From: Bacteriovoracaceae bacterium
GTDB taxonomy: Bacteria > Bdellovibrionota > Bacteriovoracia > Bacteriovoracales > Bacteriovoracaceae
Direction of reading: 5' to 3'
DNA length: 64,000 nt
Assembly: GCA_016784965.1 (NCBI GenBank)
Contig: JADHTQ010000016.1
Span: 1-64,000 of the forward strand
Shown here: piece by piece, positions 28,091-63,858 of the stretch
Numbering within the stretch: the first letter of the stretch is position 1
Layout: the number at the start of each line of letters is the position of its first letter
Position numbers and translations under genes: made by a program
Notes under the pieces: generated by a model
Seen by the model: the letters and a program-made list of their open reading frames with translations, nothing else
Told to the model about the DNA's origin: nothing
Databases searched by the model: none

Positions 28091-30748
28091 CTACTTGCTT
28101 ACTTTAGAGTGAATCTTGTTTTTTAAATGATAGTAAATCCTTATCAAAAAGATAGTGGATTTATTTAAGAACTCTTCACTAAAGATATAGTACGCCTTAA
28201 ACACTTGCCCAGATGCCAACAAAGACACTAAGGCCAACCCAAAAGTAGTAAGCAGCATTTCATAACAAAGTTGACTACCATCATTTAACAAATATCTATC
28301 CACAACGCCCAACATGGCAAAAGATATTATAATAAACAACATATTATACTTGATGACACTGAAAAAATTCCCCTCTAGCTCTTGAATAATTTCCCGCTTA
28401 TCATTGCCTCTTAATCTTTCAATATCGACACTTCTTGAGAGTAAAATAATTACTGACATCCCTAACCATAAAGGCAACCAACTAAGCCAAATTGAATCTA
28501 GGTGAAAGATACTACCTGTAGCAATTTTGTAAAGGCCAATAAATCCAGACATAGAAATACCGATATACACAAGAAGTATGCCCCTATAGAAAGAATTAAA
28601 AAATAGTGAAAGTATCACCATAATAAACAACATTGCAATCCAGCAATTGTGTAAAAAAGATTTATATTCTGCAAACCAGTGTTTGGTAATGGGCGCTCTT
28701 TTTGCAGGACCTTTAACTTGATATAAAAAGTTGCTGCCCGTTATCGCTTTAGGTATCTTAAACTGGGCCATACGTTTTAGTTGCACCCTGAAGATATGCT
28801 CTGGTACCTTCTGTATTGTTTTTTTTAATAAAACTCCTAACTTCATAGGCGGCATTTGTGGATCTTTTGAAGACACAAGTATATTTGCAAAGTTCAAAGG
28901 ATTAAAAGAGACTCTATCATAGCTCAACACTTCATCAAACCTGTCAGACTTAAAAACTGCCCAACTGGCCTGTTGTGAAATATCATTAATTGCCATTTTA
29001 AAAGATTGAACATCTAAATAGGGCAAAAAACGCATACCTGAAGGGGTAACCTCCCAATTATTAATCCAGTTTTCGCTTAAGAATCTATTTTTAAGGTAAA
29101 CAGGAGAAAAGCTTTCAATACTGGACTTTAGATCTTCACTTACCTGATAGGGTAAAAAATCCTTGTAACTTCTAAAGGAATTAATCTCATTCTGTAGATA
29201 TTTTTCTGCATTTTTTGGAGGAGCTTTTACCCCATACGGTACATAGTACCAGCTTATGGGAGTAATAATAAAAAACACAAAAATAAAAACAGCAATAAAA
29301 ACATTGCTTTCACCAAACATTTTGTCACTGCCTGTAAGGCGTGTTTTTTTGTTATCCTTAATCCAAGCAAGTGGTGTAAACATCGGAAGAACAGTTAGTA
29401 AAACCAATAAGACTGGTACCCCAAATAAAAAACTTTTTAAAATTTCTTGTGAGGGAAGATTTATCTCACTTAACAATATTGGTGTAGATAAAATGGCACT
29501 AATGGCAAAAATTGTAATGTATGCCGGTAAATACTCCATCAATGAAAAGTAAATAGATTGTGATAAAGTCCTTTGAATAAATGTAGAGAAACTAGATGGG
29601 AGAAAGTACACTCTTATTCTTCCAAGTAACACACTCAAGCAAATGGTGCCAAATATCAACAGTAGGACAAGGGCCATAAAGTCTAATAAAGTGATTTCTC
29701 CTTTATAAAGTGATAACCAGTAAAGAAAATGGCTGGATAGAATCACATCAAAAAAAAGTATCGGGGTAAGTGATGACATTCGTCTAAACATAATTAGAAA
29801 AAAGATTATTTGCAGTACAACTATTATGAGAATCATTGTCATTGGTTTAAGTAAAATTTTTAGATTTGAGTTAAATTTTGCAGTAGTAAATGATGTTTTT
29901 GGTAGTTCCTTTTGAATCCATGCCTTTAAAGCGGCCCTTGTAGTTTTATCTTTGTTAAACCATATTTTAAAATTATCTATCCTCTCTATGGCAGTGGGGA
30001 AAATAGTTGCTACATCTTTAAGGCGAACAATTCTTTGTCCCCTGGCGCCAACAATGATTGCTTGCACTTTTTCTATGGCGTCAAATTCACTATCTAGAAA
30101 ATAGCTGACATCATCTTTGGCCCCCAACCTATGAGCAAGTCCTGAAAGTGTTAGTGTCTTCCAAATTTGATCAATTGGTATTTGGGCCTGTGCCATTTTT
30201 TTAGGTAAAAGCCTTATTTTGATATGTTGATGTTTATCAAATTCTGGTTCAACCCTCTTGATCACATTTTTGATTTCATGAAGTTTGTCTTTTAGCTCCA
30301 AGTAAGTATATTCCCCGGCCCCTTCAATTACAAAATCTGGCAACATGCTCCTTTTTATTTGATTAGTAGTAATTTGCTTTACACTAGGTGGAAGCATAAC
30401 CTTAAGGCGATCCATTTTCTCCTGGATAAACAGTTGTATCTCATTAGGCCTTGTTCCTTTTTTAAAAGTCAATACAACTTTTGCACTTTCATGATCAACA
30501 AACGACTCCAGATTTAAAAGTGAAGGCAAACCATTAAATACTTTTTCCGATACCTTAACCACTTTTCGCTCTATTTCTCTAGAAATAGTACCGGGTACTT
30601 GAAATGAAACTTCAAACTGTATATATTTATAACTCGGTAGCGGATTAAAAACAAAGTCGGCAGATAGGATGAGGCCAAACATCGGAAGGCATAAAAGAAT
30701 GATAACTATGGATTTATTTTTGTACAAATATTGTAAAAAATTTTGCAT
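28091..30748 (-). CDS. degenerate RND-family membrane protein (second RND subunit)
   Basis: The length (885 aa) and layout (helix 1, periplasmic loop, helix bundle, second loop, second bundle) are those of RND pumps, with FEVSFQVPGTISREIERKVV matching the family's N-terminal periplasmic start. The helix-4 region, where active pumps carry the proton-relay Asp, reads FGTICLSVLLGRIR with no acidic residue. It is thus probably a non-translocating partner of the canonical RND protein encoded two genes upstream, as in heteromeric pumps. ATG 30748 has GAGGTG upstream and overlaps the PII-like stop by one base (TAATG). Confidence 0.8.
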   Translation of the reverse strand: MQNFLQYLYKNKSIVIILLCLPMFGLILSADFVFNPLPSYKYIQFEVSFQVPGTISREIERKVVKVSEKVFNGLPSLLNLESFVDHESAKVVLTFKKGTRPNEIQLFIQEKMDRLKVMLPPSVKQITTNQIKRSMLPDFVIEGAGEYTYLELKDKLHEIKNVIKRVEPEFDKHQHIKIRLLPKKMAQAQIPIDQIWKTLTLSGLAHRLGAKDDVSYFLDSEFDAIEKVQAIIVGARGQRIVRLKDVATIFPTAIERIDNFKIWFNKDKTTRAALKAWIQKELPKTSFTTAKFNSNLKILLKPMTMILIIVVLQIIFFLIMFRRMSSLTPILFFDVILSSHFLYWLSLYKGEITLLDFMALVLLLIFGTICLSVLLGRIRVYFLPSSFSTFIQRTLSQSIYFSLMEYLPAYITIFAISAILSTPILLSEINLPSQEILKSFLFGVPVLLVLLTVLPMFTPLAWIKDNKKTRLTGSDKMFGESNVFIAVFIFVFFIITPISWYYVPYGVKAPPKNAEKYLQNEINSFRSYKDFLPYQVSEDLKSSIESFSPVYLKNRFLSENWINNWEVTPSGMRFLPYLDVQSFKMAINDISQQASWAVFKSDRFDEVLSYDRVSFNPLNFANILVSSKDPQMPPMKLGVLLKKTIQKVPEHIFRVQLKRMAQFKIPKAITGSNFLYQVKGPAKRAPITKHWFAEYKSFLHNCWIAMLFIMVILSLFFNSFYRGILLVYIGISMSGFIGLYKIATGSIFHLDSIWLSWLPLWLGMSVIILLSRSVDIERLRGNDKREIIQELEGNFFSVIKYNMLFIIISFAMLGVVDRYLLNDGSQLCYEMLLTTFGLALVSLLASGQVFKAYYIFSEEFLNKSTIFLIRIYYHLKNKIHSKVSK

Positions 30749-31041
30749 TAAATAATCACCTCGGTTAATGGCCAATAAAACAGTATCAGTGCCTTATTAT
30801 CTGTTTTGTTCTGCTTATACTCTCTTACGACCTCTTTAAATTTTGTCAATTGCTCATCATTTACAATCAGCATGATCAACTCATTAGTTCCAGGCCAAGT
30901 TATACTACCTTGCTTTTTACCTTGCTTTCCTGAGCCATGAAGTGCTTTAAAGTGGGTATAGTTGACCAATTTTGCAAAATCCATTAATAGAAAAATTTCA
31001 TCTACCAACTCTGAGTCAAATAGTGCCATACATACAAACAT
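30748..31041 (-). CDS. small PII-like (GlnB-fold) protein within the RND operon
   Basis: The 97-aa protein has SITWPGTNELIMLIVNDEQ and a final LFYWPLTEVI strand, reminiscent of PII-like proteins and of small regulators next to metal RND pumps. No ATP-binding T-loop tyrosine is evident. It begins 3 bases after the canonical RND gene (GGAG upstream) and ends overlapping the second RND gene, so stoichiometric co-expression is expected. A role in modulating the pump is inferred only. Confidence 0.55.
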   Translation of the reverse strand: MFVCMALFDSELVDEIFLLMDFAKLVNYTHFKALHGSGKQGKKQGSITWPGTNELIMLIVNDEQLTKFKEVVREYKQNKTDNKALILFYWPLTEVII

Positions 31042-31044
31042 AAC

Positions 31045-34011
31045 TTATGCTCCAATGCTTTTTTTGCGGGTAAACATCTCAATTATAAGAGGTGTTATAA
31101 CAATAGATAATATAGTGCCAGAAACCATCCCAAATACATTAACAATGGCCATACCTCTATATAGTTCTGAGCCCTCTCCCCCAATCAGAATTGTTGGCAA
31201 CATTCCAAAAATTGTTGAAAAAGAGGTCATCAGTATTGGGCGCGTTCGTTCTGAAACGGCCAAAGAGATCGCTTCACTTAAGTTATGTCCATCTGCCAAT
31301 TTAAAATTGGTGGCCTCTATGAGAAAAATGCCATTATTTACCACAATTCCGATTAGGAGAATAAAGCCAACCATTACACTGGCATTTACTGTTTCACCGA
31401 GCAGTATAAGTCCCACAATTGCCCCGCCCAAAGTTAGGGGTATTGTGCCCATTATAATCAAAGCCTGGGTGATTGATTTAAACTGTATAACCAGAATAAA
31501 AAAGATAATAAAAGATGAAATTGTTAATGCCATTATCATATTCTCAAAACTTTCATCCATTGTTTTTATACTTCCCATACCTTGAATTAAGTTGAGTGCC
31601 ACACCCAACTTTTGCCCTAGCATTTTAATTACATTATCAACTTCACCAAGTGTTGAATCCTTCATTCTAAAATATAACGGAAGGTAGTTTTTAGAATTAA
31701 AACGATTTATACTAGAGTCAAAAAAAGATAACTTATGTTTAAACAAACTGCCAATATTGGTGTTTTGTCCTTTTGCGATGCCCATTGGTAGATCTAAAAT
31801 TGTTTTCTCAGGCGGGAATTTCATAATGAAAGGTAGTTTGTATGGTAGGTTGGAAAGATCAGCTAAGTCAACGTTATGCAGAGGAAGGGTAATTTGGGAA
31901 ATAGATTCAAGGCCACTACTGCCCATTCTTAGTGAAGTGAGAGCTTTTGGTACAATAGAGTATTGAAACATTTTGCTAAAATTTTGACTTGAACACTTAT
32001 CAATTATTGGTAAATTGCAAAACAAGTCTAGAAGTTTGTTTTTTTTATTTTGCTTTAAGTTCTTATCGATAAAATATAGGCCATCATACCCCATCGCTTC
32101 TCCCACTGGAGCAGGGCCTACTGGCAAGATATTAATATTATCAAGGGCCAGTGAAGAATCAAAAAACATCTCTTTTACTTTGCTTATCGGCAGGGCCTTT
32201 TGTAGTTGAAAAAGACTTTCAACACTTTCATGTGCCAAAGATGTAACTGACCATAAAACATCTTTTCTATCACCTAAAATGCTAGATAATTTATTTTGTA
32301 CCTTGCGCTTATTATTTACACGACTAACCTTTTCAAGCGGAAAGTTGAGAGAGTAAACACTTGAACTTACCATGGGCAGAAATTCAGTTTTGGGTAGAAA
32401 TAAAATTGAAGACAAGCTCAAACACACCACACTTGTTGGTATCAAAACTTTGTAGCCCACATTACTTTTAGTTAATCTGCGAACGAAACCAGCAAACACC
32501 ACCATCTGACCGACAAGAAATGTTGAAAGTCTAAAGAGCTGCAGAATAATACCTTTAGGTTTTTCTTCCTCCTGGAACATATGAAAACACAACCATGGAA
32601 CTAAACTAAAAACGGCTATTAAACAAATGACTTGAGTCGAGATAACCGTAAATGCTAAATCAGAAAAAAGCTTACTAGAAATATTTTTTTGCATCGCAAT
32701 TGGTAGCAACACTCCTGCCGTTGTCAAAGTTGAAGCGATCACACCAATTGTTACTTCTTTGGCACCTTTAAAGCACGCTTGAAAGATCTGCTCACCGTTT
32801 TGAATTTTGCGAGTAATCGATTCTAGCACTACTGTTGAACTATCAGTAATCATTCCTACAGCAAGAGAAAAACCATTTAGGCTAAAGAGGTTTATCGAGA
32901 TACCCATGCTTTTTAATATAAACAATGTGCCAAGCAGTGCTGTAGGAAAAACAATTGAGGCGACCAATACGCCAATTTTAGATCCTAAAAAAATTATCAA
33001 AATAATGGAATTTAAGACCACCCCTATAAAAAAATTTCGAAACACTGCATTTTGCGATTCTTTGATTTTCAAAGCTTCATTGTAGATAATTTTCATCTTA
33101 GTTCTCAAAGTACTTTGTTTTTTATCAAAACCACTGAGAAGCTCTTTTGCATTTTCAATAATAGATATCGTATCAGCACCGGGAGATTTGATAACCTCCA
33201 TTATCACAGCTTTTTTTTTCTTACCAAAAACTACATCTGGAGCAACTTTTTCTTGGGATATATCTCCTAGCCAGCGCAAGTTGATTATCGACCTATTGTA
33301 CTTAGAAGTCAGAGGTAAAAGCCCCAAGTCTGACTCACTTTTGGCCTTAATTGTTACATAGTGGTCCAGTTGGTTGCTTTTTATATATTTACGTAGAGAC
33401 CAAGATTCTTTAGAAAACTTTACAATATCACTAGAGTTTATCTTATACTTCATAAGCTTTAGCGGATCTACCTTTATTACTGTTTTGCGCGAAGAAGCTC
33501 CTTTTAGTGCAACGGCTGCAATCCCTTCAATCCTTTCAATTTGTGCCGCAAGCGCTCTGGCATCAGTTGAGACGGCATCCAAGTTACTACCATGAAAAAC
33601 AACTCGCAAAATTGAGCCATTACTTGGTCTGTGCAATACAAAGATTGGTTTTAAGGCATCTCTTGGCAACTTTATATTATTTACAACTTGCCTGGCATTG
33701 CGCAAACACCTCTCTGGTGAAAATGACCATTTGTAAAACAACACGATAATGGCCTTATTGTCCTCAATTTTTGTTTCAACTGACTCTAACTCTCCTGTTT
33801 GCAAAAAAGCATTCTCGATAGGAGTTACAACTTCATGTACAACTTTACCCTCAGGCATAAGTGGCACAGGCACAACGATCGCCACTGCAGGTATTTTTAT
33901 TGAAGGGATGAATTCATTAGATAAATAAGGTAGTGAAAAAAAACCCAGTAGCAATATTAGTAAATTTAGGCAAATAGTGAAAGTGCCCTTTCTAATAAAT
34001 ATTTTTACCAT
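31045..34011 (-). CDS. RND-family efflux pump, inner-membrane transporter
   Basis: The 988-aa protein is a complete RND transporter with 12 predicted helices and two large periplasmic loops. Helix 4 carries GMITDSSTVVLESI with the proton-relay Asp in the usual place; helix 10 has GIVVNNGIFLIEATN and RTRPILMTSFSTIFGMLP. It is proton-driven and exports drugs, metals or lipids across the envelope through TolC. Nearest by pattern is the AcrB/CusA/MdtB-like group; the substrate cannot be told. It lies 6 bases after the adaptor gene. Confidence 0.92.
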   Translation of the reverse strand: MVKIFIRKGTFTICLNLLILLLGFFSLPYLSNEFIPSIKIPAVAIVVPVPLMPEGKVVHEVVTPIENAFLQTGELESVETKIEDNKAIIVLFYKWSFSPERCLRNARQVVNNIKLPRDALKPIFVLHRPSNGSILRVVFHGSNLDAVSTDARALAAQIERIEGIAAVALKGASSRKTVIKVDPLKLMKYKINSSDIVKFSKESWSLRKYIKSNQLDHYVTIKAKSESDLGLLPLTSKYNRSIINLRWLGDISQEKVAPDVVFGKKKKAVIMEVIKSPGADTISIIENAKELLSGFDKKQSTLRTKMKIIYNEALKIKESQNAVFRNFFIGVVLNSIILIIFLGSKIGVLVASIVFPTALLGTLFILKSMGISINLFSLNGFSLAVGMITDSSTVVLESITRKIQNGEQIFQACFKGAKEVTIGVIASTLTTAGVLLPIAMQKNISSKLFSDLAFTVISTQVICLIAVFSLVPWLCFHMFQEEEKPKGIILQLFRLSTFLVGQMVVFAGFVRRLTKSNVGYKVLIPTSVVCLSLSSILFLPKTEFLPMVSSSVYSLNFPLEKVSRVNNKRKVQNKLSSILGDRKDVLWSVTSLAHESVESLFQLQKALPISKVKEMFFDSSLALDNINILPVGPAPVGEAMGYDGLYFIDKNLKQNKKNKLLDLFCNLPIIDKCSSQNFSKMFQYSIVPKALTSLRMGSSGLESISQITLPLHNVDLADLSNLPYKLPFIMKFPPEKTILDLPMGIAKGQNTNIGSLFKHKLSFFDSSINRFNSKNYLPLYFRMKDSTLGEVDNVIKMLGQKLGVALNLIQGMGSIKTMDESFENMIMALTISSFIIFFILVIQFKSITQALIIMGTIPLTLGGAIVGLILLGETVNASVMVGFILLIGIVVNNGIFLIEATNFKLADGHNLSEAISLAVSERTRPILMTSFSTIFGMLPTILIGGEGSELYRGMAIVNVFGMVSGTILSIVITPLIIEMFTRKKSIGA

Positions 34012-34017
34012 TATCTT

Positions 34018-34695
34018 TTACTTTTTCTTTAAAAGACAAACTTTATTTTCAGCAATAAACTCTGCTGTGTATCCATCAGTATAGTTACTTATAAGATCAA
34101 GCGTGACCACTTGGTCGCAAAATAAACTTCCCACATTAATGTATAGAGAAATGATTTCTCCGATACGGAAATCAACCTTGTCTTGGGCCAAAGATATAAT
34201 CATCGAAACAGCACCAGTATCAGGGTCAACTATTGGAGATATTTTTTTCACTTTGGCCCAAACAGACTTTTGCCCTTCTAAGGATATTTCCATCCCAGGT
34301 TTTACACTTCTGGCTTCCTCAGGCGACAATGAAACCTCGATATATTTTTTACTCGGATTCACAACGGTAACAAGTGGCATTCCATGGGTTATTGCTGCAC
34401 CTTTTGTGACATGAATCTTGGCGATTGTACCTTTTATGGTACTTTGATAATTTCTAATGGTTTGACGTTCAAAAACCTTTAACAGTAACTGACCTGGTCT
34501 GACATTATCCCCCACCTCCCTGGTTATATTATTTAAGATACCATTTCCAATGGCCACTAAGGTAGACACCACTTTTGGCTTTACCACACCATATACCGGT
34601 AACCTTTTTGTGAGTGTCGCACAAAGCAAGTCATTTTGATAAATCACACATATTAGATAGACCAGTAATGCTATTTTAGATTTTAGTTTCATCAA
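34018..34695 (-). CDS. short periplasmic adaptor (membrane fusion protein) of RND pump
   Basis: The product is secreted and has a split lipoyl-like domain: VVSTLVAIGNGILNNITREVGDNVRPGQLLLKV and then GTIAKIHVTKGAAITHGMPLVTV. A beta-barrel part follows (YIEVSLSPEEARSVKPGMEI, SPIVDPDTGAVS). At 225 aa it lacks the alpha-hairpin that normally reaches TolC, so contact may be made differently or by a shortened form. It overlaps the TolC gene by 20 bases and precedes the RND gene by 6. Confidence 0.82.
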   Translation of the reverse strand: MMKLKSKIALLVYLICVIYQNDLLCATLTKRLPVYGVVKPKVVSTLVAIGNGILNNITREVGDNVRPGQLLLKVFERQTIRNYQSTIKGTIAKIHVTKGAAITHGMPLVTVVNPSKKYIEVSLSPEEARSVKPGMEISLEGQKSVWAKVKKISPIVDPDTGAVSMIISLAQDKVDFRIGEIISLYINVGSLFCDQVVTLDLISNYTDGYTAEFIAENKVCLLKKK

Positions 34696-36079
34696 TTTTA
34701 ACCTTGTTAAATTCTTGTAAGCTACTCGCTATCTTGATTAATCCCTGCTGATATCTTCTACGTGCAGTAAAAGCTTCAAATTGGGCATGAGCATGGTCTA
34801 GCAGCATAATTGATTGCTCAAAGCTTGTCGATGAGCCGGCCTTGGCCACCTCTTTAAGGGTATCAACTTTATGCATCTTTTGCCGGGCCAAGGCGCGCTT
34901 AAATTGATACTTGGCCTTTGCGTTACTGCACTCCATTTGATCTTTAGCAAGAGAAACTAGGGCCTTTGAAATTTCTAGTTTTTTTCTAACCTTAGTCATT
35001 TGCAAAGAAGCTTGTGCCTGACCAATTCTTGCACTACTGTAAAAGCCATCAAAAATATTAAATGTCAAAATTGCAGCAACACTCCAACTATCGGATACAT
35101 TTGACTTACCTTCATACTTTCCAGATTTAGAAAAAGAACTGGTTAAGCCAATAGCTGGTATCCAAGGCCGCTCCCACCTGGTGCTATTGTAGATGTTTGA
35201 AAATGAATCAATAGTTAGATCATACTGCTTGATTTTAGGAGAATTTTGTAAAAACTTGACCTTAATCATTTCAAGTGTTGGAAGAGGATAATCAACTGTG
35301 AGTTTTGGTAATGAGTCACTCCACTTATCAACATAAGTCGGTATTATATCTTTCAATGCTTGATACGCTAAGTTTAAGGCCCCTTGCGCCCTAGTCTTTT
35401 GGAAAACCACCTCGTGATATCTCGTTTCTAGTTTTAAACTTTCATCTTTAGAATATAAGTAATTATTTCGACCTCGTATGGATTTTTTTTTCAACTTAGA
35501 AAGTATCCTATTGGCCCTATTAAGAGTTTTAATAATGTCTTTTAAAGCGTTAATTTCTAAAACAAGTTGTACTACTTGTGATTTTTTATTTTCTCTTATC
35601 ATCTGTAAGTCTATCGTGTCGCTCATGAGGCTATTTTTTGAGTTTTTGATATTGGTACTAATGCTATATTTTGCAAAAAGCACATAGCTCATACCCAAAT
35701 CTACACTCCAAGCATCAGGCCTTAGGCTTGCTGTGTCGCCTGGACTATTATCAGAGGCAACTGGATCAAGCCCCCCGCTTCCACCGCCTGAAGATGATAC
35801 TTGTGAACTTGAAGCAGAGCTTAGGCTTTGATTATCAATTTCTTTGCCCTTGTTTATCCCAGCATTGAGCTTAAAGCTTGGATAAAGGGGAGATTTGGAA
35901 GCATCAACTCCGAATCGTCTAAACTCCACTCTCTTTTTTGCCAGCTTTATTTCTCTATTAGATTGCTCTAGTTGCTCATACAAGCTCTCAAGCGTCATGG
36001 ATAAAACACACTTAGGAGCAGATAAAATAAAAATAGTCATAACACAAACAAAAGTGGCCATATTAGTTAACTTTTTCAT
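34676..36079 (-). CDS. TolC-family outer-membrane efflux protein
   Basis: Two repeats of long helices rich in Gln/Lys/Ala (about residues 30-260 and 270-465) match the OEP family trimeric channel. The signal peptide ends near CVLSMT. A Ser/Gly-rich insertion (about residues 85-120) is unusual. The ATG at 36079 (467 aa) overlaps the STAS stop as ATGA; an upstream alternative would run into the STAS gene. It is the exit duct for the RND pump downstream. Confidence 0.88.
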   Translation of the reverse strand: MKKLTNMATFVCVMTIFILSAPKCVLSMTLESLYEQLEQSNREIKLAKKRVEFRRFGVDASKSPLYPSFKLNAGINKGKEIDNQSLSSASSSQVSSSGGGSGGLDPVASDNSPGDTASLRPDAWSVDLGMSYVLFAKYSISTNIKNSKNSLMSDTIDLQMIRENKKSQVVQLVLEINALKDIIKTLNRANRILSKLKKKSIRGRNNYLYSKDESLKLETRYHEVVFQKTRAQGALNLAYQALKDIIPTYVDKWSDSLPKLTVDYPLPTLEMIKVKFLQNSPKIKQYDLTIDSFSNIYNSTRWERPWIPAIGLTSSFSKSGKYEGKSNVSDSWSVAAILTFNIFDGFYSSARIGQAQASLQMTKVRKKLEISKALVSLAKDQMECSNAKAKYQFKRALARQKMHKVDTLKEVAKAGSSTSFEQSIMLLDHAHAQFEAFTARRRYQQGLIKIASSLQEFNKVKIDETKI

Positions 36080-36402
36080 GCAGCAACAATTTCTCCCATC
36101 GATTTTGCGATTGTAATTTCTTGGCAACACATCATATTTAACAACTCAATTAATTCTTGGTCTTCAACAATGAACGTAAGCAGGCCACCTAAAGCATATA
36201 ATTTTTGATGACACTTACTGATGTATCTCAAAGTGGAGATATTAAGAAAACTACATTGTTGTAGATCCAATGAAACCTTCCTATACCCTGCACGGATAAC
36301 ATTATCCAATTCCTTGGAAAACAATGGGTAAGTATAACTGTCAATGGCACCAGTGACAGTTAGTATGACCCACTGTTGATGTGAGATACAACTGATTTTC
36401 AT
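36076..36402 (-). CDS. STAS-domain protein heading the efflux operon
   Basis: The 108-aa protein is a single STAS fold: GAIDSYTYPLF, VSLDLQQCSFLNISTLRYI, and a C-terminal helix. In anti-anti-sigma factors the middle motif is DSSGL with a phosphorylated Ser; here it reads NIS, so the first Asp is lost while Ser is retained. It could be a partner-switch regulator or a lipid-transport-type accessory (as MlaB). It is translationally coupled to tolC by ATGA. Confidence 0.8.
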   Translation of the reverse strand: MKISCISHQQWVILTVTGAIDSYTYPLFSKELDNVIRAGYRKVSLDLQQCSFLNISTLRYISKCHQKLYALGGLLTFIVEDQELIELLNMMCCQEITIAKSMGEIVAA

Positions 36403-56197: not shown

Positions 56198-58663
56198 ATG
56201 AAACATATCTATTTTAACATTTTATCAATCCTACTGCTAACTTGTTACAGTACACAAGCTAGTGCAGTAGATCGAAAAATTGCATCAGTTCCAACCAGTG
56301 AGTTGGAAAAGGCCGAGTCGGCACGATTAAAACCTAGTAATGTCAAAGTGATCCTAAACAACAACGAGTCATTTTTAAGTAAACTAGACCTCATTAACAA
56401 AGCTACAACATCTATTAGAATGTCTTATTTTATTTTTGCAGATGATGAGAGTACATCACTACTTTCTGAAGCCTTAATTAAAAAAGCTAACAAAGGTGTA
56501 AAAGTAAAAATTATTGTCGATTATTTTAGCAACTATTCACGTCTGGATTACTTTTCAATGCTAGAGCGTGAAGGGCGAGGAAATATTTCTGTACGCTTTT
56601 ACAATCGACCTACTAGAAACATCATTCGAGATGCCGTTTATTTGACCACCCCATGTCCTTATGACATCGCCCAAAAAAAATGTTGGGAACACAAAAGTGC
56701 TAGAGTAAATGCAGCTTTTAAAAAGCCTAACACCAATTGGACAATGCATGCAATGGCGTCTAACGCCGGCACAGAATATTCAAAGATGTTTTTATCTGGT
56801 CTCTACGGAAAAAATCCAAAACTTATGGCCAAAGCAATTTTAAGTGGTCAACAGATTGATCTAGCTAAACTTCAAAGTGGTGATAGCAAAATGACAGCTG
56901 AAGATAAGAAAAACTTAAAAGAATTGCTTCACATTTACTTTCTTTCAAAGTTTGGTTCACCAGCAGAGAGAGCATTTAACAAAATTAAGCTTTACATGGC
57001 AGCAATATTTCACAGCGACACTGTTCCTGGAGTGCTAAATTCAGTTAATAGTTTACTTCCTGTTAAATTGAGTAAAAAGTATCTAAGTAAAGCAGATCGC
57101 AAACTTGCCAAATATAGAAATAGCGACTGGAGCTTTCTAACTGACTATACTCACCACAAACTACTGCTGGTTGATAATAAATACATCCAACTAGGTGGAA
57201 GAAACCTAGAAAACTCTTACCACATGGATCCAAATCCCTTGACTGATAAATATATCTTTGTAGACACTGATGTCAGAGCAGAAATCATGCCTGGTGGTGG
57301 AGCTTCTAAGATTGCTAAGACTTTTGATGAGCTATATAACTATAAGCGTCTACTTGCCAGCATAAAGGATATTAGGCAACACGCACCAAATGAATTATTG
57401 GCCAACTCAAATCTTTATGAAAAAGCAGAAAAATCATGTCCACAAAACCTTGGCAAAAAACTAGAACTCTGTATTAAAAAGAAATTTGCTGCTCTTTATA
57501 TGAAAGAGGGACAGTTAGGTCAGCGAATGGATAGAGCAAAAAATAAGTTACAAGTTAATGCTAAAAAGGCCTATAAGTATTACTCCAAATTCACGCCCAA
57601 AGGTGGACGTGGATATTATCAAGCAGCACCAGGTAACTACCAAGGTGACAAGGCACAACTTCTTGAGGTCAGCTTTGATTTAAGTGGCCAAGATATGATC
57701 ATGTCCTACTTAGAAAATCTTCCTTACGACCGAAAGTCTATTGAGGGATCTGGCGGAATGGTTGCGTACCCATGGTCAAGAAAAGTACCTGCACACCGAA
57801 GATTAAGAAAGTACGGCGCCATTGATGATGAAGAGCTAAAATATGGCAAAAACATTCATCATATGTTAAGCAAAGGCCCCAAAGCTGTTTGTGAAAGTTC
57901 TGCAAACAAAAGAGAATACAAAAGAATTGTTTTACACAATGCCTATGTTCTGCTTCCTGCTAAGATGTTGGAGGAGCTTAGAAAAATGATAGATGGTACA
58001 TACGACTGTCGTTATGTTAAGGTGCAGTTTTTATCAAACTCACAAGAGACAACTGACCTAGACGTAGTAAATCTCTTTTCTAATCACACTATGCGAGTCT
58101 TTTTTCAATTCTATAAAGAAAGAAAAAATGCAGCTTCTGCCACTTTTGAATACTACGAATACAAAAGACTCACTCAAGATGATAGTCAAAACCTATCTCT
58201 ACATACCAAGCTATACCTCATGGGTGATGATGTATTCATAGGTTCGGCAAACCTCGATCCAAGAAGTTACATGATGGATACAAATAATGGCTTTTACTTT
58301 AAAAATGTTTCTGGATTTGTCAGCAGTTACTTGAAATACTTTGATTCAGTAATTGGCAATAGGGAATTCACACGAGATATTACCAGGCACTACATGGAGC
58401 TTACCCCCGCTGAATTAGCTAGGTCAGACAAAAAATTTCTTGATGATAAAATCATAAAATACAAAGCTGACAAGTGGATTAAGGCCAACAAAAAAGAAGC
58501 CGAAGTTGCTTCGATGAAAAAAGACTTACTGGACTTGTTACAACTTTCAGAAAGTTATGCTGCTAAAATTCTATATGGTGATAATTACCGCAATTCTAAT
58601 TCACCAAGTTTTGGTGGTAAGAAGTACTTAGAAAAATACAATTCAATGTTAAAAGCAATTTAA
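56198..58663 (+). CDS. secreted phospholipase D superfamily protein (two HKD motifs)
   Basis: This 821-aa exported protein (signal peptide ending near TQASA) has both PLD catalytic motifs: HHKLLLVDNKYIQLGGRN (His at about 318) and LHTKLYLMGDDVFIGSANLDPRS (His at about 668). Such enzymes hydrolyse or transfer phosphodiester groups on phospholipids (cardiolipin synthase-like) or nucleic acids. It is larger than the usual 480-aa cardiolipin synthase, with an insertion between the motifs. GGAG (TTGGAGTAAGTTATG) precedes the start. An inverted repeat follows the stop. An envelope or prey-membrane role is possible. Confidence 0.9.
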   Translation: MKHIYFNILSILLLTCYSTQASAVDRKIASVPTSELEKAESARLKPSNVKVILNNNESFLSKLDLINKATTSIRMSYFIFADDESTSLLSEALIKKANKGVKVKIIVDYFSNYSRLDYFSMLEREGRGNISVRFYNRPTRNIIRDAVYLTTPCPYDIAQKKCWEHKSARVNAAFKKPNTNWTMHAMASNAGTEYSKMFLSGLYGKNPKLMAKAILSGQQIDLAKLQSGDSKMTAEDKKNLKELLHIYFLSKFGSPAERAFNKIKLYMAAIFHSDTVPGVLNSVNSLLPVKLSKKYLSKADRKLAKYRNSDWSFLTDYTHHKLLLVDNKYIQLGGRNLENSYHMDPNPLTDKYIFVDTDVRAEIMPGGGASKIAKTFDELYNYKRLLASIKDIRQHAPNELLANSNLYEKAEKSCPQNLGKKLELCIKKKFAALYMKEGQLGQRMDRAKNKLQVNAKKAYKYYSKFTPKGGRGYYQAAPGNYQGDKAQLLEVSFDLSGQDMIMSYLENLPYDRKSIEGSGGMVAYPWSRKVPAHRRLRKYGAIDDEELKYGKNIHHMLSKGPKAVCESSANKREYKRIVLHNAYVLLPAKMLEELRKMIDGTYDCRYVKVQFLSNSQETTDLDVVNLFSNHTMRVFFQFYKERKNAASATFEYYEYKRLTQDDSQNLSLHTKLYLMGDDVFIGSANLDPRSYMMDTNNGFYFKNVSGFVSSYLKYFDSVIGNREFTRDITRHYMELTPAELARSDKKFLDDKIIKYKADKWIKANKKEAEVASMKKDLLDLLQLSESYAAKILYGDNYRNSNSPSFGGKKYLEKYNSMLKAI

Positions 58664-58954: not shown

Positions 58955-58984
58955 CACTTGCCAACATTATAATATTATAATACT
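58955..58984 (+). promoter_or_regulatory. conserved AT-rich upstream element, copy 1
   Basis: CACTTGCCAACATTATAAT followed by ATTATAATAC. The same ACTTGC-N3-ATTATAATAT element lies upstream of two paralogous genes at 63145-63176 and 63828-63858 (minus strand). This copy lacks the five-base CAAAA of the others, so the -10 region differs. Confidence 0.6.
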
Positions 58985-59038
58985 TTAATGCACACACAAA
59001 TAGCTTGATTGCTATAAATTTAAATTGGAGGGTTTAAA

Positions 59039-59452
59039 ATGAAAAAATTAACAGTTGCAGTATTTTTGTTGCTACTAACAGGTAGCGCTTTTGCTAACAT
59101 CTCTCAAGAGAGTGTTTCAAGTGATTCAAGTGTCACAAAATCATGGTTTCCTGGTGATTGGGTTTCTGACCGGGACGATGACTATCGTTATGACAGAAAT
59201 GGCAGAAGAGGTTGGCTATGTGTTGCAAGAAGTGAGTACCATGATGACGGTTACACATTCGACAGCTGGATGCCATGGAACTTGGACGAATTTAGTAACA
59301 ATGATTACTACTACGCAAGAGCAAACAATCGTGACGAAGCTCGCAGCCGTGCTCTAAGCAAATGTTCACGTGACTTTTCTGACTGTGAAGTTAAGTGTAA
59401 TCGTCGTCACAACAGAAGACGTGGTTACAGACGTGGTGGATTTTTCTTCTAG
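59039..59452 (+). CDS. small secreted Asp/Trp/Arg-rich protein, paralogue A
   Basis: The 137-aa product has a signal peptide (SAFA/N), then an Asp/Trp/Tyr-rich stretch (KSWFPGDWVSDRDDD). A conserved C-terminal part follows: WLCVAR, YYARANNRDEARSRALSKC, SRDFSDCEVKC and a basic Arg/Gly tail. Four cysteines match those of paralogues B (62683-63090) and C (63361-63771). No Pfam is certain; DUF4189-like is possible. Strong GGAGGG precedes the ATG. It is followed by a perfect bidirectional terminator. Likely exported or surface-associated. Confidence 0.8.
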   Translation: MKKLTVAVFLLLLTGSAFANISQESVSSDSSVTKSWFPGDWVSDRDDDYRYDRNGRRGWLCVARSEYHDDGYTFDSWMPWNLDEFSNNDYYYARANNRDEARSRALSKCSRDFSDCEVKCNRRHNRRRGYRRGGFFF

Positions 59453-59483
59453 AAAAAAACTCGATATATAACAGTACAAAAAG

Positions 59484-59514
59484 GGCCAGAAGTATACTTC
59501 TGGCCTTTTTTTTT
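59484..59514 (+). terminator. bidirectional rho-independent terminator
   Basis: GGCCAGAAGTA-TACTTCTGGCC (59484-59505) is a perfect palindrome, followed by T9 on this strand and preceded by A5. It lies between the convergent genes ending at 59452 (+) and 59513 (-). Confidence 0.92.
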
Positions 59515-60430
59515 ATTTATCAGCACTGTGTTTTGTTAACCCATCAACTATAATAACTCCATATTCTGCAGCTGAATTGGTTTTTTGTATACGACATCCT
59601 TTACTACTAGTTGAAGTAACCAGTGAGTAATATAACCTATTTGGAAGTTTAGGACGCTTATAAACCTTAACTAGATCGACAACAGCTTTTTTCCACTGCT
59701 CATTCCAATCTAGTGAAACATCCTCAACAATCAACTCAATAGGTGAGTAGTCCCTGCTTTTTCTCCTAAACGCTCTCCAAGATATTTTAATTTTCATACA
59801 TGTTACATCATTTTTAAGTAGAAAAATTGGATGTTCTGAGGTCGTTGCCTTAAGTCTCTTTGTAATCATCCCTCTTTTTTTATTTTTTTGATTTTTAAGA
59901 TGTAAGTTCTGATTAAAACTTGGGTTGTTATAATTATTCTCCTGATGAGCAACTGAATAATCAGAAAGACCTTTAACTTCAAATCTAACAAGATTACTTG
60001 GAGGAAATTCAGTGTTTTGTACATCAGTATGATAAGTCGTTACTTGCATATAAATCCAATCATGCCCCTTAATTAAACGGTTATTTTCGGCCAAGCGTTT
60101 AATTGCTTGTTGCCACATTTTTGTCCAATTTTCTGTGTTTTCTGTATTGAAGACATGAAAACCTACATGATTGATTTGATTCATACGACTTTTTGCTTTT
60201 GTTAACAGCAGGTGAACATACAGTCGTCGTGCATTATTACTCACTTTTATTTTGGGAGGAGTCTCCATTGTTGCATAGTAGCGGTGTTTTCCTGTTTCTT
60301 TTTTCAAAACAGTTAACTTTACTTCAAAAAGATCAGATAGATCATATATATCTGAAGATGTCACACCAGAGTTAGCATTTGAAAACATCATCAAAAGCAG
60401 TATTGCAACAATTAACTTATCTACCATCAA
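59513..60430 (-). CDS. secreted protein with two Trp-module copies
   Basis: The 305-aa product has a signal peptide (ANSG) and two copies of a module also found in the protein at 61414-62400. The first: NWTKMWQQAIKRLAENN, then a strand and VRFEVKGLSDYS (about 105-180). The second: DWNEQWKKAVVDL ... YGVIIVDGLTKHS (about 235-303). Between them is an Asn/Lys linker. No known domain or enzyme motif. It is transcribed toward the terminator at 59484-59514. Confidence 0.72.
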   Translation of the reverse strand: MMVDKLIVAILLLMMFSNANSGVTSSDIYDLSDLFEVKLTVLKKETGKHRYYATMETPPKIKVSNNARRLYVHLLLTKAKSRMNQINHVGFHVFNTENTENWTKMWQQAIKRLAENNRLIKGHDWIYMQVTTYHTDVQNTEFPPSNLVRFEVKGLSDYSVAHQENNYNNPSFNQNLHLKNQKNKKRGMITKRLKATTSEHPIFLLKNDVTCMKIKISWRAFRRKSRDYSPIELIVEDVSLDWNEQWKKAVVDLVKVYKRPKLPNRLYYSLVTSTSSKGCRIQKTNSAAEYGVIIVDGLTKHSADK

Positions 60431-60499
60431 AAAAAGCTCCCTGTAACAATTAATCTCGGTATTGTTTTGTATTGTAAAATTTTATTTTACCACGATTTC

Positions 60500-61345
60500 T
60501 TATTGTGCTTGTAGAAATTGCGCTCTAAATATTTTCTTAAAATCCTTGACCATTATACGCTTTGAATTAGATTTAACTTCAAGGTTTTCATGAGCTCCAC
60601 TAACAGGTCCAATTGCAACATGGAGAAGATTGATCCTTATCTTGCGTCTTGCTCTAGAAGTAGCAGTAGCACTTACATTTGCAATTCTATCCATCAATCC
60701 CCATAAACAAAATGTCCACTCATCATTGCCCTCTTCATCATGTACACTATTATTCCATTTTTTAATATTAATTGCTTCACATTTAACAGTAAAGCTAGGA
60801 GCAAACTCTTGGTCAAGAGAGATTAATACATTCACAATCTCAAGGTTTTGAGCATTAGCATTTTTAATATCGATAATTGGAGCGCTTTTTAAGGTCACAT
60901 CGCTCTTATTAGATACCTCTATAAGCATCGTTTTATGTCTTCGATAGTCCCACCTCTTAGTCAAATCTTCTCTCTCAGTCATACCCGCATTCATCGTTTT
61001 TGCATTTTCAATTATTCTCATGGCCGCATGATAAGGAACTCTTTGGTGATACAAAAATCTCTTAGAGTCTACAATGATGTCATCAGGAGTATGACCTTGT
61101 GCTAGTAAATATTTCATTCTTGCAGACAACAGAACCCTCATTTTTGCTTCAGGATTTTCTTGTCTGTCCCTTTTGCCTCTCCCTCTATTTTGACCACCTT
61201 TTTGACCGCCATCCATACCCATCATTTTCATTGGCATTGTCATCCAACTCATAGGCCCCATAGCGTATGCTGATTGTTGCAATAAAGAAAAAATGGCAAT
61301 CACGGCTAATGTCTTAATTATCTTGTTTTGAGCTTTATTTTTCAT
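60500..61345 (-). CDS. secreted protein of the island, Met/Gly-rich N-terminus
   Basis: The 281-aa product has a signal peptide (SAYA/M), then a Met-rich stretch (MSWMTMPMKMMGMDGG), a Gly/Arg/Lys-rich patch and a C-terminal domain with EWTFCLWGLMDRIAN, weakly similar to the W-x3-W part of the neighbours. Met clusters can bind copper, which I mention only as a possibility. No domain is recognised. It lies between two related secreted genes on the same strand (gaps 69 and 68 bases). Confidence 0.68.
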   Translation of the reverse strand: MKNKAQNKIIKTLAVIAIFSLLQQSAYAMGPMSWMTMPMKMMGMDGGQKGGQNRGRGKRDRQENPEAKMRVLLSARMKYLLAQGHTPDDIIVDSKRFLYHQRVPYHAAMRIIENAKTMNAGMTEREDLTKRWDYRRHKTMLIEVSNKSDVTLKSAPIIDIKNANAQNLEIVNVLISLDQEFAPSFTVKCEAINIKKWNNSVHDEEGNDEWTFCLWGLMDRIANVSATATSRARRKIRINLLHVAIGPVSGAHENLEVKSNSKRIMVKDFKKIFRAQFLQAQ

Positions 61346-61413
61346 TGTTTGATCCCTAAGTTAAAATTATTTTACAATTCACATATAGTCTTAATCATCA
61401 CTTCTAGTGGTCT

Positions 61414-62400
61414 TTATTGTCTATCATCCCTTAGTTTTTGATATGCTTCTCGCTCCTTTGCAAATTTCCCAGAAAAACTTATTAAACCTTGAACGCTTAT
61501 CATAATTTCTGTAGATAGTGGAAGTGGAGAAGAGTATGCATCATCTGCAAATGTAATAACTTTTACAGTTAAAATATTTGATCGCAAGGGGTTGTTTCTT
61601 GCAAGAGCAGTAATTGATGTATGCCACATTCCGGCCCAACTCTCTTTAGCATCTAGGAGCATGGCCTTAATATATTGACCTGGAAGAAGATCGCTTTCTT
61701 TATTAAATTGATATGGTGATATAATTACTAGCATCCTGCTGGCATCGTTATCAGTTGCAAGCTGTGGTGATGGGGTAAACTTTGAAGTATCAGTGCTTAA
61801 AGTCATTGTAGTAAATGTCTGCTTAGTTTGACCTTCTTCAGCTAACATATATAGTGCAATTGAAGCGGGTGAATTATCACCTATCCAATTTATATCACCA
61901 TACCCCATGTCCTTGAAATATTTTTCATTTGGTGTCTCAGAAGGCCCTTGTGCAACAAACCCTCTAAGTTGTCCATTGTCTCCAACTGTCATAATTTTTT
62001 GTTGATTTTGTCTTGAACGTCTTTGCCCTTTTGAAAAAGGGATATCATCCCAATTGCAATCTACGCCATGGCTAGCATCGTTAGTGAACGAATCAACGGA
62101 GCCTTCAAGAGATCCCATAAAAACAAGAAAACCTCTTCCCCAATCATTAATTTGATCCGTGGTAGATAAAATTCTATTTGCCATACAGCCAATTTCTTTA
62201 AATCCTAGCTTCATCCCATCAGACATATGGCCCATAGCATTGTTTCCCATGCCTACCATTCCTCCGCCTGGGTCTCCCTCTCTGCCAATCATAACATTTT
62301 CCATTGCTTCCAACATTCTATCCATAAAGGCAAAGCTACTTGAAACCATGTTAAAAGATAAAAACACAACAAATAGACTGTATATAGTTAATTTTTTCAC
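61414..62400 (-). CDS. secreted protein with one Trp-module
   Basis: The product (328 aa from GTG 62400) has a signal peptide ending near SSFAF, a Met/Gly-rich N-terminal region and a C-terminal module SWAGMWHTSITALARNN ... MISVQGLISFS (about 255-315) that matches the first module of the 59513-60430 protein in spacing and hydrophobic pattern. No known domain. The GTG start is preferred since GGAGG precedes it by about 10 bases and it begins KKLTIYSL; an ATG at 62424 adds MWLGGSDL. Confidence 0.7.
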   Translation of the reverse strand: MKKLTIYSLFVVFLSFNMVSSSFAFMDRMLEAMENVMIGREGDPGGGMVGMGNNAMGHMSDGMKLGFKEIGCMANRILSTTDQINDWGRGFLVFMGSLEGSVDSFTNDASHGVDCNWDDIPFSKGQRRSRQNQQKIMTVGDNGQLRGFVAQGPSETPNEKYFKDMGYGDINWIGDNSPASIALYMLAEEGQTKQTFTTMTLSTDTSKFTPSPQLATDNDASRMLVIISPYQFNKESDLLPGQYIKAMLLDAKESWAGMWHTSITALARNNPLRSNILTVKVITFADDAYSSPLPLSTEIMISVQGLISFSGKFAKEREAYQKLRDDRQ

Positions 62401-62620
62401 GAGATCCGATCCTCCTAACCACAATTAAATGCAGTACAATAAATAACGCTTTGCACCACCCTACCCTAAATAGATTTATTTATCTACCACTTTCAGGATC
62501 ATTTTTTTAATTTTCTCTCTCGCTAAAACAAGACGCCTAATTGGCTGAAATTAATGATAAAATTTACACCCTAATATATATTGAAGTGTGAAATAATTAC
62601 AAATTGATGGGCAATAAAAA

Positions 62621-62658
62621 CAAAAAGGCCAGGAAACCGATGTTTTCTGGCCTTTTTT
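62621..62658 (-). terminator. bidirectional hairpin terminator of paralogue B
   Basis: GGCCAGGAAAC (62627-62637) pairs with GTTTTCTGGCC (62642-62652), loop CGAT, flanked by A5 on the left and T6 on the right. On the minus strand it follows the stop at 62683 by about 30 bases. Confidence 0.8.
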
Positions 62659-62682
62659 CAATAAAAGATACTTGCGTTGCTA

Positions 62683-63090
62683 TTAGTATCTTCTATATCT
62701 TCTGTTTTCTCTTCTGTTTTCTCTTCTACACCTAACTTGGCAAGTGTCGAAATCGCGCTGACATCTTTCTAATGCACGGTCTCTAGCATCATCGCGGTAC
62801 CTTGACCTTGCATAGTAGTAACCATCACGATCCCAGTCGCCAGGCCCCCAATCTCCTGGGCCCCAATCTCGATCACGGCCTCTTCCACCTCCATCGTAAT
62901 TAGTATCTCTTGCCTCGCAATACCAACCTCTTCTTCCATAGTCACCATCCCAGTCCCAATCACCAGGTCCCCAATCTCCTGGCCACCAGCCTTTAGTGAC
63001 ATCATTTGAAGAAGCTGACTCTTGAGTTGTTGTCGCAAAAGCACTTCCTGACAATAGTACAAATACTAGCAATACAAATAGTTTTTTCAT
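62683..63090 (-). CDS. small secreted Asp/Trp/Arg-rich protein, paralogue B
   Basis: The 135-aa product shares an identical 20-residue signal region (MKKLFVLLVFVLLSGSAFAT) with paralogue C. Its mature N-terminus has about four GDWGPGDWD-type repeats, then WYCEAR, YYARSRYRDDARDRALERC, QRDFDTCQVRC and an Arg-rich end with duplicated RENR. Four cysteines are conserved in all paralogues. Strong GGAGGG site. The repetitive, highly charged sequence suggests an exported matrix or surface protein; function unknown. Confidence 0.8.
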   Translation of the reverse strand: MKKLFVLLVFVLLSGSAFATTTQESASSNDVTKGWWPGDWGPGDWDWDGDYGRRGWYCEARDTNYDGGGRGRDRDWGPGDWGPGDWDRDGYYYARSRYRDDARDRALERCQRDFDTCQVRCRRENRRENRRYRRY

Positions 63091-63144
63091 CTTTACCCTC
63101 CGTGTGAATAAACTAAGTTTATCAATGTATTAAATCGTAATATT

Positions 63145-63176
63145 ATGATATTTTGATATTATAATACTTGCAAGTA
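63145..63176 (-). promoter_or_regulatory. conserved AT-rich upstream element, copy 2
   Basis: On the minus strand TTGCAA (63173-63168) and TATCAT (63150-63145) are 17 bases apart around ATTATAATATCAAAA. The site is 55 bases before the paralogue B start and nearly identical to the element before paralogue C. Confidence 0.7.
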
Positions 63177-63301
63177 TTTTTTTTAAAAAAAATAAAAAAA
63201 AATTTATAGATTATTGCTCTTCGATCTATACATGAATTGTAAATGCAAATTGTAACCGTAGAGTTTGCATTATACACCGGTGTAAAGTTGTCGGAAAAAA
63301 T

Positions 63302-63338
63302 AAAAAAGCCACAAAGATGCTGCTTTGTGGCCTTTTTT
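63302..63338 (-). terminator. bidirectional hairpin terminator of paralogue C
   Basis: GCCACAAAG (63308-63316) and CTTTGTGGC (63323-63331) pair perfectly with loop ATGCTG, flanked by A6 and T6. On the minus strand it follows the stop at 63361 by about 30 bases. Confidence 0.85.
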
Positions 63339-63360
63339 ATACAAAAAATACAGATATTTT

Positions 63361-63771
63361 TTAGTATCTTCTATATCTTCGGTTGTCTCTTGTACATCTA
63401 ACTATACAAGTATCAAAGTCTCGATGACATTTTTCCAATGCACGGTCTCTGGCATCTTGACGGTACCTCGATCTTGCAGAATAGTAATCATCATAACGAC
63501 GGACTACTCTAAAAAATCCCCAGTCTCCATCTGCTGGTCCCCAATCTCCATCTCTACCTGCGGGTCCCCAATCTCCATCTCTTCTGCGTCCATGCTCAGA
63601 ATCTCTTGCTTCACAAAACCACTCATCTCTTCCATAACGGTAATCATTATCCAAGTCTCCTGGCCACCAACTTTTAGTCACCTCATTTGAAGATGTTGGT
63701 CCATGATCAACGGTTGCAAAGGCACTTCCTGACAACAATACAAATACTAACAATACAAACAGTTTCTTCAT
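63361..63771 (-). CDS. small secreted Asp/Trp/Arg-rich protein, paralogue C
   Basis: The 136-aa product has the same signal region as paralogue B, an Asp/Arg/Gly-rich middle with RDGDWGPA repeated twice (GPAGRDGDWGPADGDWG), then WFCEARD and YYSARSRYRQDARDRALEKC, HRDFDTCIVRC and the end RRYRRY. Four cysteines are conserved with A and B. GGAGGG is well placed. It lies upstream of paralogue B on the same strand, but each has its own promoter and terminator. Confidence 0.8.
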   Translation of the reverse strand: MKKLFVLLVFVLLSGSAFATVDHGPTSSNEVTKSWWPGDLDNDYRYGRDEWFCEARDSEHGRRRDGDWGPAGRDGDWGPADGDWGFFRVVRRYDDYYSARSRYRQDARDRALEKCHRDFDTCIVRCTRDNRRYRRY

Positions 63772-63827
63772 TTTATCCCTCCTTACGAATAAACTCTCTC
63801 TTCCTCAACGCTATAAATTGCAACATC

Positions 63828-63858
63828 ATAATATTTTGATATTATAATATTAGCAAGT
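63828..63858 (-). promoter_or_regulatory. conserved AT-rich upstream element, copy 3
   Basis: On the minus strand TTGCTA (63856-63851) and TATTAT (63833-63828) are 17 bases apart around ATTATAATATCAAAA, followed by a 57-base leader to the ATG at 63771. It is the same organisation as before paralogue B. Confidence 0.7.

Follow-up and report, generated by a model that had tools for sequence, protein, structure and literature searches.

The nearest described family to the small proteins analyzed in this study is DUF4189 (PF13827). The structure of its member Rv1813c consists of two duplicate beta/beta/alpha/beta lobes with two disulfides, and the biochemical function of the family is unknown (PMC10269737). 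Among the papers searched, none of those that mention DUF4189 deals with Bdellovibrionota in its title or abstract. Similar to DUF4189 (Rv1813c, PDB 7nhz), the small proteins described here combine predicted export with a predicted beta-beta-alpha-beta lobe made of a C-x-A strand, an A-x3-AL-x2-C helix and then a Cys-containing strand, and they share the order and register of the cysteines with lobe 2. However, they have one lobe instead of two, stay below the Pfam cut-off, lack the C-terminal WACN motif described for DUF4189 (PMC10269737), and insert a long Asp/Trp/Arg stretch between the first two strands.

The window, the whole 64,000-nt stretch of Bacteriovoracaceae DNA that was analyzed, lies on an 86.5-kb contig (C39) of a 4.59-Mb assembly in 126 contigs, and the source genus had no second member among the genomes searched.

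Gene content of the island

Three larger genes are flanked by three small paralogues near the end of the window, with the following features:

58958..58982, plus strand: shared promoter element TTGCCAACATTATAATATTATAATA upstream of 59039, by alignment; exact matches genome-wide only at the four paralogues
59039..59452, plus strand: small Cys4 gene 59039, 137 aa, predicted exported, domain at about residues 57-122
59201..59407, plus strand: predicted single-lobe DUF4189-like domain of 59039, beta-beta-alpha-beta, C61/C109/C116/C120
59478..59511, both strands: predicted bidirectional intrinsic terminator between 59039 and 59513, by folding
59513..60427, minus strand: larger gene 59513, predicted exported, two modules (about 33-165 and 183-305 of the listed ORF)
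60500..61345, minus strand: larger gene 60500, predicted exported, mature N-terminus Met-rich (MGPMSWMTMPMKMMGM), a single module, detected weakly
61414..62400, minus strand: larger gene 61414, predicted exported, Met-rich N-terminus, C-terminal module, homologue of the first gene (C15a) of a pair on contig C15
62615..62668, minus strand: predicted intrinsic terminator of 62683, folding z -4.5
62683..63090, minus strand: small Cys4 gene 62683, 135 aa, predicted exported, GPGDW repeats
63149..63173, minus strand: shared promoter element upstream of 62683, by genome-wide pattern search and alignment
63302..63337, both strands: predicted bidirectional intrinsic terminator of 63361, by folding
63361..63771, minus strand: small Cys4 gene 63361, 136 aa, predicted exported
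63515..63582, minus strand: 2.5 tandem copies of a 27-bp repeat that codes for the Asp/Trp zone of 63361
63832..63856, minus strand: shared promoter element upstream of 63361, by genome-wide pattern search and alignment

The likely start codons of 61414 and 59513 are GTG at 62400 and ATG at 60427, respectively. Adjoining the island, 56198-58663 encodes an 821-aa predicted exported protein with PLD-like domains (PF13091, E 6.6e-20). Elsewhere in the window, 28091-36130 holds an apparent tripartite efflux cluster, named on sequence alone, with two RND-like, one adaptor-like and one TolC-like protein.

The three small proteins are paralogues, as the first-pass annotation had proposed; they share about 36-62% identity in BLASTP, and besides its signal peptide each has the four invariant Cys and the conserved helix motif. 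A fourth paralogue was located on contig C19 (G000:C19:7914-8327), between transglycosylase-like and KAS III-like genes. The copies pair as 59039 with the C19 gene (58%) and as the tandem genes 62683 and 63361 (about 60%). The tail motif that had been described for them was present but inexact, as VAR is preceded by LC in 59039 and YYYAR is replaced by YYSAR in 63361. Likewise, the expanded Asp/Trp repeat zone was real in 62683 (DWGPGDWGPGDW) and 63361 but absent in 59039 and the C19 copy, being confined to the second pair. At the C-termini of all four proteins, an aromatic residue follows an Arg-rich stretch (YRR..GFFF or RRYRRY). None of the six proteins of the island scored above cut-off in Pfam, NCBIfam or PHROGs. 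On their sequences, the four paralogues are duplications within this lineage.

The ribosome sites were found to be strong (GGAGGG-like), and the genes look well expressed from sequence, both in line with earlier expectation. Individual terminators, which had been assigned to all genes, were predicted behind each small gene of the island (folding z -4.5 to -6.0), but not between the larger ones (z 0.3 and -0.1). Because the gaps between the larger genes are about 70 bp and contain no terminators, these genes probably form one operon in the order 61414, 60500, 59513.

A single-lobe domain across the Bdellovibrionota

Searched at whole length against 369 phylum genomes, the small proteins gave only weak matches outside the source genome, and a GTDB genome scan with whole proteins gave no match. 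Four of the weak matches (L033, L034, L037 and L040) pointed to a domain family, and four others (L005, L006, L042 and L043) proved unrelated once their sequences were read. A match to Bd0108, "predatory lifecycle switch", was rejected, as it spans residues 1-35 only, that is, the signal peptide region.

A profile of the core domain matched 79 of the 369 genomes at E<=0.1, a count that includes the profile-building sequences, which match by construction. Reading of the weak matches had revealed small predicted exported proteins with the identical four-Cys pattern, and this pattern was complete in 25 of the 29 loci read out. The domain consensus is roughly [WF]xCxA ... YxGxG-x5-A-x3-A[LM]-x2-C ... 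C-x(3-5)-C, in which the four Cys are invariant. Among named records, the wider domain occurs in MAGs of Bdellovibrionales, Bdellovibrionaceae and "Deltaproteobacteria", and the source genome itself holds two further members, on contigs C69 and C14. The window-type sequences matched the profile, carried the four invariant Cys, and aligned to the members outside the source genome with an hhalign probability of 97.4%. Like the window type, the other single-lobe proteins of the phylum (alignment A6) mostly have a signal peptide followed by the CxA strand, the YxGxG strand, the A-x3-AL-x2-C helix and the C-x(3-5)-C end. Unlike the window type, they carry a short loop or a GWEEHxxGH motif in place of the Asp/Trp zone, and some have extra N-terminal regions or proline-rich tails. 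From these sequences, the tail appears to be a phylum-wide, previously unnamed predicted exported domain that is expanded in this lineage.

One subgroup of the single-lobe proteins (L066, L071, L060, L051 and L075:1680-2156, from Bdellovibrionales MAGs) has a conserved WEEHxxGHxGxG loop with two His and two Glu, often with an additional N-terminal region preceding the domain; the loop is possibly a metal or ligand site.

The relation of this domain to DUF4189 was quantified with PF13827, which scored 15.3 bits on 59039, and lower or not at all on the other small proteins, relative to a gathering cut-off of 25 bits. In the entire source genome PF13827 matched only two proteins, both among the four small genes; among 28 domain members, weak matches were obtained in 12, always below the cut-off (best E 0.0023). 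Of the two tandem lobes (about 97 positions), only positions 61-93 were matched, and one lobe is predicted. As the Pfam cut-off was not reached, the domain is classed as a single-lobe relative, not a member, of DUF4189. The top PDB sequence match was also a DUF4189 protein, Rv1813c (E 0.25).

For a profile comparison, true DUF4189 proteins were collected within the phylum. Against this profile, the 28-member domain aligned by hhalign to lobe 2 with a probability of 93-95% and to lobe 1 with 50%. The lobe-2 score was 37, while the maximum after column shuffling was 17.6 (0 of 200 shuffles reached the score) and the reversed order gave 13. The four window-type sequences alone reached 26% against DUF4189 vs. 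97% against the other members, so it is the wider family that connects them to DUF4189. In the alignment, the Cys of the helix and the next Cys were in register with lobe 2; the outer two lie immediately beyond the aligned columns, and their match to DUF4189 was made by eye on the sequences.

AlphaFold, with three sequences only, predicted strands at residues 59-65, 84-87, 90-95 and 116-122 and a helix at 98-112, so that the beta/beta/alpha/beta topology of a DUF4189 lobe was found by prediction. The mean pLDDT was 55.7 overall; within the domain, most blocks of ten residues averaged 67-82. A Foldseek search of the PDB with this weak model gave no informative match, and 7nhz/Rv1813c was not among the matches listed.

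The first-pass annotation had named assignment of the tail to a well-understood family as the result that would speak against it. The profile searches did not give this result, because the nearest family, DUF4189, has no known biochemical function.

A promoter element shared by the small genes

Apart from the ribosome site and one promoter block, the four regions upstream of the small genes are unalike, with diverged flanks. Their alignment revealed a conserved block, TTGCNNNNATTATAATATNANAATA, at about -85 to -56. Within it, a -35-like hexamer starting with TTGC is followed after 17 bp by a -10-like hexamer (TTGCTA/TATTAT and TTGCAA/TATCAT being listed), and an AT-rich repeat, present as ATTATAATATTATAAT in two of the four promoters, occupies the 17-bp spacer. 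In the whole 4.6-Mb genome the promoter pattern occurred exactly four times, each before a small paralogue; the assembly held no copy with 1-2 mismatches and none of a reversed control pattern, and 124 other genomes of the family had no copy at <=1 mismatch. These results suggest a sigma70-like promoter common to the four small genes, with the AT-rich spacer as the candidate binding site of a regulator.

Silent sites of the four genes have diverged strongly (dS 0.7 to saturated, four-fold sites identical at only 30-64%), and dN was below dS in every pair with computable dS. Because the coding sequences are so diverged, recent duplication alone would not account for how well the promoter block is conserved. 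This bears on the idea of a gene-duplication relic without coherent function, in which the small genes would be rapidly drifting surface proteins. The varying repeat length of the Asp/Trp zone and the lack of whole-protein relatives outside the source genome would fit such drift, but promoter, ribosome site, cysteines and helix motif were all kept while silent sites diverged, which makes a relic very improbable.

The larger proteins and their tie to the small genes

As had been noted before, the three larger exported proteins belong to no known family (none in Pfam, NCBIfam, PHROGs or the PDB) and share a module, which measures about 125-130 residues and links 61414 with 59513 (E 2e-7). The family comprises five proteins, all in the source genome, with seven module copies (one or two each, the copy in 60500 being weak), and no relatives were found in the 369 phylum genomes. 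Its other two members form an adjacent pair on contig C15 (L077:6614-8622; 325 and 332 aa). Four of the five proteins have Met-rich mature N-termini, with 8 to 16 Met in 27-58 residues. Those of the C15 pair are extremely so (MMGMMNMMSNMMGGMMPGMG; FFGMMMNMMKMPMQMMQGM), and a MxDGMKLGFxxIxC block is common to the first C15 protein and 61414. By sequence, the larger proteins seem to be a separate exported family, unrelated to the small proteins and seen only in the source genome.

The module gave no match in a PDB profile search. Its model (mean pLDDT 68.9, pTM 0.67) has a beta-rich fold, and a PDB fold search returned common, mostly Ig/FN3-like matches with Z up to 5.8, where Z 5-6 is the level of unrelated matches. 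Similar to Ig-like or fibronectin-type modules it is predicted to be beta-rich; in contrast to them it has an 18-residue helix starting at a W-x3-W motif and no sequence match, with Z too low to tell relatives from chance. The module may perhaps be an Ig-like beta-sandwich.

Small and large genes are linked only by their shared locus and by an operator-like site (ATTATAATATNANAATA-like) before the C15 pair. This site lies 46-62 bp before the C15a start and is one mismatch from the small-gene core. It was noticed after the fact, on inspecting six upstream regions; none of 1000 shuffles gave such a site, and none of 74 other upstream regions had one within two mismatches. In the 122 kb of the source genome examined, <=1 mismatch to the operator core was found only at the four small genes, at C15a and at an oxidoreductase gene on contig C14. 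The AT-rich C14 site (L076:1513-1529) was set aside as an operator of the Cys4 gene there, because that gene is about 200 bp away and a divergent FAD-dependent oxidoreductase-like gene follows the site after about 60 bp.

The first-pass annotation had proposed one dedicated system. In such an extracellular apparatus, the large module proteins would form a scaffold with which the small Cys4 proteins would be partnered, all under one operator. The adjacency of the genes at 59-64 kb, the predicted export of all products and the C15a site are consistent with this. However, the co-occurrence check that had been suggested, run across the 369 phylum genomes, found the tail domain widespread without the large proteins. 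Further, the C19 small gene has no adjoining large gene, the C15 pair has no adjoining small gene, neither promoter element nor operator site was present upstream of the large operon at this locus, and the C15 site emerged only after six regions had been inspected. The proposal is at most partly supported, and a single apparatus is regarded as unlikely.

The AT-rich element may also resemble AT-rich PerR or Zur boxes (TTATAATNATTATAA; TGTTATANTATAACA). If a metal or peroxide regulator of the FUR family used it as its operator, both protein types might handle metals or oxidants, the small ones being Asp/Cys-rich and the large ones Met-rich; the Met-rich mature N-termini of four large proteins would agree with this. 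However, neither a regulator nor a metal gene could be connected with the site, and the four Cys correspond to disulfide positions that are structural in DUF4189, not to a metal site. This reading is considered improbable.

The reading we prefer, and hold to be reasonably likely, is that the locus encodes commonly controlled binding proteins of the envelope or the extracellular space that are specific to this lineage, the small ones single-lobe DUF4189-like and the large ones a separate family. The small genes would encode predicted exported, probably disulfide-bonded proteins, each combining one compact beta-beta-alpha-beta domain, equivalent to the second DUF4189 lobe, with a flexible region rich in Asp, Trp, Arg and Tyr. 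The four paralogues, keeping their common sigma70-like promoter, could be switched on together by one putative regulator at the AT-rich spacer. Released to the periplasm, surface or medium, their products may act as small binding proteins in which aromatic and charged contacts would come from the Asp/Trp/Arg region. The larger genes, probably as one operon, would supply mostly Met-rich proteins, possibly with Ig-like binding modules. These proteins, too, probably function on the surface of the cell, and one signal may govern both families. The genome-unique promoter signature makes co-regulation directly testable.

The Bdellovibrionota include bacterial predators, and these results offer a fold assignment for a common, unnamed class of their predicted exported proteins, in which the domain is related to, and half the size of, a fold described in a secreted protein of mycobacteria. 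A bolder proposal, to which we give a low probability, is that this single-lobe domain, widespread but undescribed in the Bdellovibrionota secretome, is the unit that gave rise to the two-lobe DUF4189 fold, and that it has here expanded to a private regulon which may also control species-restricted Met-rich, Ig-module surface proteins.
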